A stretch of 43,655 bases of DNA from Armatimonadia bacterium. Lineage in GTDB: Bacteria; Armatimonadota; Zipacnadia; Zipacnadales; JABUFB01. Below the pieces are notes generated by a model that made no database searches, was not told where the DNA came from, and worked only from the letters and a program-made list of their open reading frames with translations. Location of the stretch: contig JBDKVB010000102.1 of NCBI GenBank assembly GCA_039679385.1, positions 1 to 43,655 on the forward strand, given 5' to 3'. This document shows positions 31,359 through 32,588 of this stretch, one piece after another; the first letter of the stretch is position 1; each line of letters begins with the position of its first letter. Both the position numbers and the translations under genes were made by a program.

Positions 31359-31379
31359 AGCTTATGAGGAGTCTTCGCC

Positions 31380-32588
31380 ATGTCTGATATGATTGATCGT
31401 GAGACGGCCCTGCAGCGCGCGAGAGAGCATATCTTCTCGATGGCGGTTAGCGACGCCGCAGCCGATCTGTGCGCGGCGAATCTCGCCTTTGGCCTCGCGA
31501 AGATCCACTTCGCCCAGTCCCATTTCGGCTTCCCTGCCGATGCTTCCTTCATCGGCACGCCGGACATGACGATCACCCGCAACAGTGGACGCTGGCGGGC
31601 CGGTATCGGCTATGGTGGTCGTCTGAGTTGGGGTGACGGCGATCGCGACCTGGTCGTTCTCGATGTGAAGCCAAACACCTGCGGGATGCTCATGGGCGGC
31701 CTGCGGGAGCGGCCTGACGCAGGGGCTCTGACCAAGCGCCTGCACCAACTGCAGCACCATCAGGTTACGATCAAGGGCGTGCCGATTGAGTGGGACTTCG
31801 GTACCGGGAACCACTTCATCGACGTGTTCGAGACCGACGACTCAAGCCCCGGGCGTGACCTGCCTCCCTATGCCTTCGTGGTACACGCCTCGGGTGCGGA
31901 GCTCCGAGCCGAAAGCTCGTACGGCCCTGGCTTGTACTGGGACGACAGCGCGGAATGGCAGCGACGCTGCGAGGTTCTGGACACTCCCTGGGGTCCCCTG
32001 CATCTGCTCCGCGGCGACGAGGCACGCCAGTACATCGACCTGTACTGGGAGACCGATGACTTCGCAATGAAGCGCCGGATGTTGGCCGCCGAGTCGTTGT
32101 TCGGCGATTTCGAGATCCTCGGCAACATCAACCACCAGGGGCTGCTCAATGACAATGAAGTCCTGCTTGGGTGCCAGACGACCAGCGTGCCGGAGAACCA
32201 CTTGCTGGGTGTGATGGTGCGCGCCGATCGTCCGGCCTTCCTGCTCAAGGGTCTGCCGAACCTCACTGACGAGCATATCGATGCCCTGGGCTTCCGCGAG
32301 AGAGCCGAACGCTGGGGACTGATAGAGCGTCTGCGCGATGCCAACGTGATTCCACACGGGGCCGGGTACTCGCTACCCCATCTGAGCCGCGTCCGCCGGG
32401 TCATCGAGATCAACAACACCCGCTACTTCGAACTGGAGCGCGCAGGTCAGAACGACACCCAGATCATCAGCGAGCCGCGCGACCTCAACTGGGGCTACCG
32501 GGACGAGTCGGTGGTCGATCGAACCGTCGAGTGCGGTCTGGGTGAGGTTGCCGCCAAGCTGAACCCGCTGTTCGTCCTCAAGACGTGA
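31380..32588 (+). CDS. Divergent RtcB-like RNA ligase homologue
   Basis: 402 residues, ATG behind AGGAG. RtcB joins RNA 3-prime phosphate (or 2',3'-cyclic phosphate) to 5-prime hydroxyl ends using GTP and manganese. The family order of motifs is kept: SHFGFP at 47-52, Asp95 and Cys101 in the CGM block (101-103), GTGNHFID at 141-148 (Asn144, His145), VVHASG at 167-172 (His169), NINHQG at 249-254 (His252), PHGAGY at 325-330 with His326 in the place of the guanylated histidine, and a LNPLFVLK end at 394-401 matching the PLGVVKG end. Differences: Asp-to-Cys spacing is six residues, not three; the HSGSRG loop is changed; the protein is shorter than usual (about 480). Similarity was recognised from motifs only. 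It may have altered activity. Confidence 0.6.
   Translation: MSDMIDRETALQRAREHIFSMAVSDAAADLCAANLAFGLAKIHFAQSHFGFPADASFIGTPDMTITRNSGRWRAGIGYGGRLSWGDGDRDLVVLDVKPNTCGMLMGGLRERPDAGALTKRLHQLQHHQVTIKGVPIEWDFGTGNHFIDVFETDDSSPGRDLPPYAFVVHASGAELRAESSYGPGLYWDDSAEWQRRCEVLDTPWGPLHLLRGDEARQYIDLYWETDDFAMKRRMLAAESLFGDFEILGNINHQGLLNDNEVLLGCQTTSVPENHLLGVMVRADRPAFLLKGLPNLTDEHIDALGFRERAERWGLIERLRDANVIPHGAGYSLPHLSRVRRVIEINNTRYFELERAGQNDTQIISEPRDLNWGYRDESVVDRTVECGLGEVAAKLNPLFVLKT

Follow-up and report, generated by a model that had tools for sequence, protein, structure and literature searches.

The open reading frame at positions 31380-32588 (+) of the window, the 43,655-nucleotide stretch of an Armatimonadia genome that was analyzed, encodes a protein that is, on the evidence of its predicted fold and the profile of its family, securely homologous to RtcB. 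It lies outside the RtcB family proper and inside the RtcB superfamily. Its family is a new and unannotated member of that superfamily, with a known fold and a known chemistry; no description of it was found in the open-access literature. We assign a probability of roughly 60% to the view that the protein uses Mn and a histidine-nucleotide intermediate to activate a phosphate end, and that it acts on something other than tRNA exons. Four features carry this explanation: the fold, the catalytic residues that have been kept, the coexistence of the gene with a canonical RtcB, and its linkage in relatives to a gene encoding an HD-domain protein. The RtcB fold has been described as unique and as tied to RNA ligation. 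A deep second family that has the catalytic core without the RNA-facing features would show this chemistry in another role.

The reading frame itself is real, as initially annotated. It runs for 402 codons from ATG to TGA to give a protein of 402 amino acids, and a ribosome-binding site (GAGGAG, 31366..31371, +) lies 8 bases 5' of the ATG. A reading of the region on the opposite strand was discarded, being interrupted by two stops. Full-length homologs that hold the same invariant residues are found in many phyla, which puts the observation far beyond chance. The designation of the frame as an RtcB-fold family protein draws on the frame call, these homologs, an AlphaFold2 model, and a fold match to RtcB only. 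Its neighbors have metabolic roles, as had been noted from the start, or general ones: a gene for a LON substrate-binding domain lies upstream and divergent, genes for fumarase alpha and beta (PF05681, PF05683) lie downstream on the same strand, and a GDSL lipase is also among them. A homology search agreed with the earlier reading that the window has no archease gene.

Homology to RtcB emerges when the family, rather than the single protein, is compared. Searched alone, the window protein finds no match up to E 10 in Pfam, NCBIfam, PHROGs or PADLOC, no RtcB match by sequence in the PDB, and no relatives in genome contigs, where an alignment query is needed to detect them. It does not reach the cut-off of the curated RtcB profile (PF01139 / NCBIfam RtcB). 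A profile built from 108 family members, however, aligns to one built from 34 canonical RtcBs at E 3.1e-6, pairing the GNHF motif, the second and third metal histidines, the guanylylated histidine, and the C-terminal lysine. Thus, the profile search suggested in the initial annotation failed for the protein and succeeded for the family; the refuting condition set there, no significant RtcB profile match, holds for the single protein in letter but not in substance. In genome searches, the family profile also matches the C-termini of canonical RtcBs at E about 1e-4, and the Pfam RtcB model makes a weak match to three members (best E 0.0012).

The predicted structure speaks to the same point. An AlphaFold2 model made with 25 homologs (pLDDT 93.7, pTM 0.92) has the RtcB tertiary fold. 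Searching 350,542 PDB chains with Foldseek, the only matches with E < 0.001 were to RtcB (13 chains, E about 1e-8). VIA-align 2 scored 9i8v_C at Z 22.6 and 4dwq_A at Z 21.9, with an rmsd of 3.2-3.4 over 308-317 residues; for RtcB structures as a set, Z was about 19-23 (19.4-22.6) over 306-319 residues, and the next fold had a Z of 6.0. Fold and family profile together uphold the first description of the protein as a divergent RtcB subfamily. It is placed outside the family proper because two defining features fail, these being the match to the curated profile and an aspartate metal ligand.

Compared with RtcB (PF01139; P. horikoshii PH1602, 4DWQ; human RTCB), the fold is alike over about 310 residues, and GNHF, HGAG and the C-terminal VxK come in the same order. 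In the window protein these and the other motifs read GNHF (N144, H145), HASG (H169), NHQG (H252), PHGAG (H326) and PLFVLK (K401), all present as first reported. Conservation was assessed in 108 aligned family members, divergent Asgard paralogs included, and five residues, C101, H145, H169, H252 and H326, are invariant in all 108. Their counterparts in P. horikoshii RtcB are the metal ligands C98, H203, H234 and H329 and the guanylylated H404, the roles of which are taken from PMC10630183. The three metal histidines and H326 were matched to RtcB by profile alignment, C101 by motif order only.

On the forward strand, C101 (the shared metal ligand corresponding to C98) closes the element N99-x-C101 at 31674..31682; H145 (H203) sits within N144-H145-F146 at 31809..31817; H169 (H234) is at 31884..31886, where the GSRG that follows in RtcB is lost; and H252 (H329) is at 32133..32135. 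H326 (H404), encoded at 32355..32357, also aligns to the guanylylated histidine of the canonical RtcB of its own genome, so that the histidine said to accept GMP is indeed kept. Two further positions are near constant. K401 of the C-terminal VLK (32580..32582, +), aligned to K480 of P. horikoshii RtcB, is Lys in 98 of the 108 members. D62 of TPDxTxTRN (31563..31565, +), a candidate counterpart, by motif order, of D65 in the MPD motif of RtcB, is kept in all members except three divergent ones. One further member from Zipacnadia (L050:9168-10343) is missing the NHQGLLxxNE segment, H252 with it, and is otherwise intact; it is possibly an inactivated copy or an assembly error.

What has been lost is as specific. 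The aspartate that serves RtcB as a metal ligand (Asp95, three residues before the cysteine) is Pro in the family and Ile in four divergent paralogs. The initial annotation saw here an Asp-Cys pair set three residues further apart. The spacing is as described, six rather than three, but there is no conserved pair: D95 of the window protein is Asp in 67 of 108 members, Asn in 31, Leu in 6, Gln in 2 and Glu in 2. With Asp in 67 members and one of these four other residues in 41, an obligatory role for D95 in metal binding is unlikely, and it is probably not a ligand at all. This displaced Asp, not conserved, is the exception in an interpretation that was otherwise largely right. Next to the replaced ligand, the family has a constant Asn, N99, found in 104 of 108 members, with Asp in the remaining four divergent paralogs; N99 could stand in for the aspartate that RtcB uses. 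In human RTCB, ligation needs all five metal ligands (PMC10944509). One of the five is missing here, and the chemistry may therefore be altered or lost.

Other losses concern the HSGSRG loop and the length of the protein, and both had been correctly seen. The HSGSRG of RtcB is HASGAE in the window protein, and the alignment has no Arg at the position whose counterpart in Thermococcus (Tb-RtcB R237) contacts RNA (PMC12135372). The metal cysteine and first metal histidine are 44 residues apart, versus 105 in the canonical RtcB of the same genome, as about 60 residues of RtcB between the cysteine and GNHF are missing. Overall, the protein has 402 amino acids against 483 for that RtcB, which makes it 81 shorter (about 80 had been estimated). 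In RtcB, E206 contacts the base. The family has D, N, S, T, Q, A or K at this position, and because it varies, the nucleotide may not be GTP. Together, the lost Asp, the lost RNA-contacting Arg, the altered residue on the guanine side, and the lost insert point away from tRNA exons as the substrate.

The family is widespread and patchy. Of 101 related Armatimonadota genomes, 29 encode full-length relatives, mostly at 41-70% identity. An alignment-based scan of genome contigs found 54 loci labeled as Armatimonadota (Zipacnadia, WS1), Chloroflexi, Deltaproteobacteria, Spirochaetes, Bathyarchaeota, Woesearchaeota, Nanoarchaeota, Helarchaeota and others; the labels come from metagenome assemblies, and single ones may be wrong. 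In the Asgard archaea, the phylum of the Helarchaeota genome, a profile count finds the family in 81 of 195 genomes, about four in ten of those sampled, and some of these hold two or three copies. Four other phyla have it in 3/279, 3/300, 2/301 and 2/247 genomes (about 1%), counts that exclude short matches to canonical RtcB and that are, if anything, overestimates, the draws containing the center genome. Since no Pfam or NCBIfam model was matched over its cut-off, the family has likely been missed in current genome descriptions.

In a tree, the family forms its own deep group, and the window gene falls inside the clade of Armatimonadota, of which Zipacnadia is a class, beside a relative from the same family. 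A viral origin was considered and found to be without support: a scan of viral contigs gave no family relative, and the sole viral fold match was to one phage RtcB.

The genome that holds the window also has one canonical RtcB (C31, E 1e-178), which answers a question raised when the gene was first described, and one archease (C128), outside the window. Because the host carries both, tRNA splicing is an unlikely role for the window gene. Among Armatimonadota, 27 of the 29 carrier genomes likewise have a canonical RtcB; outside that phylum, 20 of 28 carriers do.

RtcB is often, though not universally, linked to archease. Relatives of the window gene have an HD partner instead. In 21 distinct genomes, drawn from archaea (Asgard, DPANN and Bathyarchaeota) and from several lineages of bacteria, an HD-domain gene sits next to the family gene or, at L089, is separated from it by one short gene; it may be upstream, downstream or divergent. 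On the family tree, the HD neighbor appears in 20 of 76 labeled rows with 10 changes of state, which implies that the association either arose early and was lost several times, or was gained several times. The HD protein has a match to PF01966, and resembles the YpgQ/YedJ class of HD pyrophosphohydrolases both by profile, where these are its closest solved structures (E 1e-22), and by the fold of its model (Z 19.4 to YpgQ-ADP; Z 17-20 across the class). YpgQ is a Mn-dependent nucleotide pyrophosphohydrolase (PMC8177086). The partner differs from the YpgQ/YedJ proteins in being linked to an RtcB-fold gene. Where it recurs, the pair is a two-gene unit that can be directly expressed and assayed.

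The partner is not in the window. Indeed, in Armatimonadota no HD gene adjoins the family gene; only generic, non-adjacent HD proteins were found, and these were rejected as partners in the window's own clade. The neighbors of the gene are not conserved there, and it stands alone. This absence from the clade of the window counts against the preferred explanation. The canonical RtcB and archease in the genome, and the HD neighbors elsewhere, favor the initial suggestion that the substrate or role is different.

If the preferred reading is right, the window enzyme would bind Mn, as RtcB does, and would react with an NTP to form a covalent intermediate between His326 and GMP or a related NMP. Transfer of the NMP to a terminal phosphate would then yield X-pp-N, a phosphoanhydride. 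This might be joined to a hydroxyl group to form a phosphodiester, or be left or released as a cap. In relatives, the HD pyrophosphohydrolase could cleave X-pp-N or NTP species. So stated, the reading spans two substrate classes, nucleic-acid ends and small phosphoesters. The first two alternatives below split these classes between them, and confidence in them overlaps with confidence in the whole.

In the first, the enzyme heals nucleic-acid ends. Here, it would be a second ligase for RNA (or DNA) 3'-phosphates, or a capping enzyme used in repair, like the RtcB2 or capping RtcB3 paralogs, and the HD protein would trim or decap the ends. We hold this tentatively, at something short of even odds. 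RtcB paralogs that differ in ligation and capping do exist, in Myxococcus (PMC10630183), the nucleotide-accepting histidine and most of the metal residues are kept, and a partner of the nucleotide pyrophosphohydrolase class fits decapping. Like the RtcB2-PrfH or TIGR03073-type proteins and the Myxococcus RtcB1-3, the family would then supply second RtcB copies with specialized roles. Those proteins, however, are named and have curated models, and the family matches TIGR03073 and PRK09588 marginally (E 0.02-0.05 only, by one or two of 39 members); no PrfH-like gene was seen beside the family gene in the neighborhoods examined. The reading must also contend with the loss of the RNA-contacting Arg and of the insert, and with the fact that genes for RNA repair, release factors, nucleases and archease do not recur beside the family gene at the loci examined.

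In the second, the enzyme would act on small molecules. It would reuse RtcB chemistry to link a phosphomonoester metabolite with an alcohol, or to activate that metabolite, and so serve the metabolism of phosphodiesters, lipid head groups or inositol phosphates. This is possible, and doubtful. One setting for it is an inositol-phosphate operon that holds a divergent Asgard paralog (L225-L228), together with a GT4 glycosyltransferase, a homolog of inositol-1-phosphate cytidylyltransferase (IPCT), and a CDP-alcohol phosphotransferase related to DIPP synthase. Inositol-1-phosphate synthase is present at three of the four loci; not every gene of the operon was seen everywhere. Other members adjoin a metallophosphoesterase (four Asgard loci, L081, L204, L211 and L230), a GDPD (two of these, L204 and L230), an ATP-grasp protein (L078, L081 and L101, in one Asgard and two Chloroflexi genomes) or TLC/MFS-type carriers (L078, L110 and L111, in one Chloroflexi and two delta genomes), and the window gene itself adjoins fumarase. 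The operon, however, belongs to one divergent group with altered pocket residues, and may not reflect the window gene; nor are neighbors in Armatimonadota conserved. In the four operon paralogs themselves, D62 is Gly in three and N144 is replaced. The ATP-grasp-like protein (L078:9196-10554 (-), L081:9237-10616, and L101) has about 455 amino acids and a weak Pfam match.

A broader form of this metabolite hypothesis is somewhat unlikely. It would make the family a second branch of the RtcB fold, common among Asgard archaea and scattered among bacteria, that applies histidine-nucleotide chemistry to small phosphorylated metabolites in concert with an HD pyrophosphohydrolase. With substrates of this kind, for example inositol or lipid head-group phosphates, the RtcB fold would not be confined to RNA ligation.

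A third alternative, which we consider unlikely, is that the protein is a degenerate relative that has lost the ability to form a nucleotide adduct; it might then be a metal-dependent phosphodiesterase or phosphatase built on the RtcB scaffold. The loss of an essential Asp and the variability of the guanine-contacting Glu would fit, and the reaction of RtcB itself includes a 2',3'-cyclic phosphodiesterase step (PMC12135372). In such a protein, however, one would not expect the adduct histidine (H326, 108/108) and the C-terminal Lys to be so constant. Last, a fast-evolving but ordinary RtcB ortholog for tRNA or rRNA processing is disfavored as very improbable, since canonical RtcB coexists in most carrier genomes, the family is deep and its own, and archease is a neighbor once only, even if 8 of the 28 carriers outside Armatimonadota, mostly incomplete metagenome assemblies, yielded no canonical RtcB. 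That one archease (L083:4186-4629 (-), Bathyarchaeota) is convergent with the family gene and directly downstream of it.

Some recurring neighbors were set aside as local, namely a pyruvate kinase gene close to four members from archaea, and genes for PilT/PilB-type ATPases close to some from Armatimonadota. Conserved Asgard neighbors (c1-c4 and c11) were also put aside, having no clear link to the chemistry. Two arrangements recur among them. At L200, L203, L206, L209 and L229, a gamma-glutamyltransferase-like gene precedes an Asgard paralog, which is followed by a protein of about 305 amino acids without a Pfam match (c11). In many Asgard genomes (L197, L198, L199 and L219-L224), a conserved protein of about 210 amino acids (c4) is encoded divergently from the family gene, and a P-loop ATPase-like gene (c2) follows.
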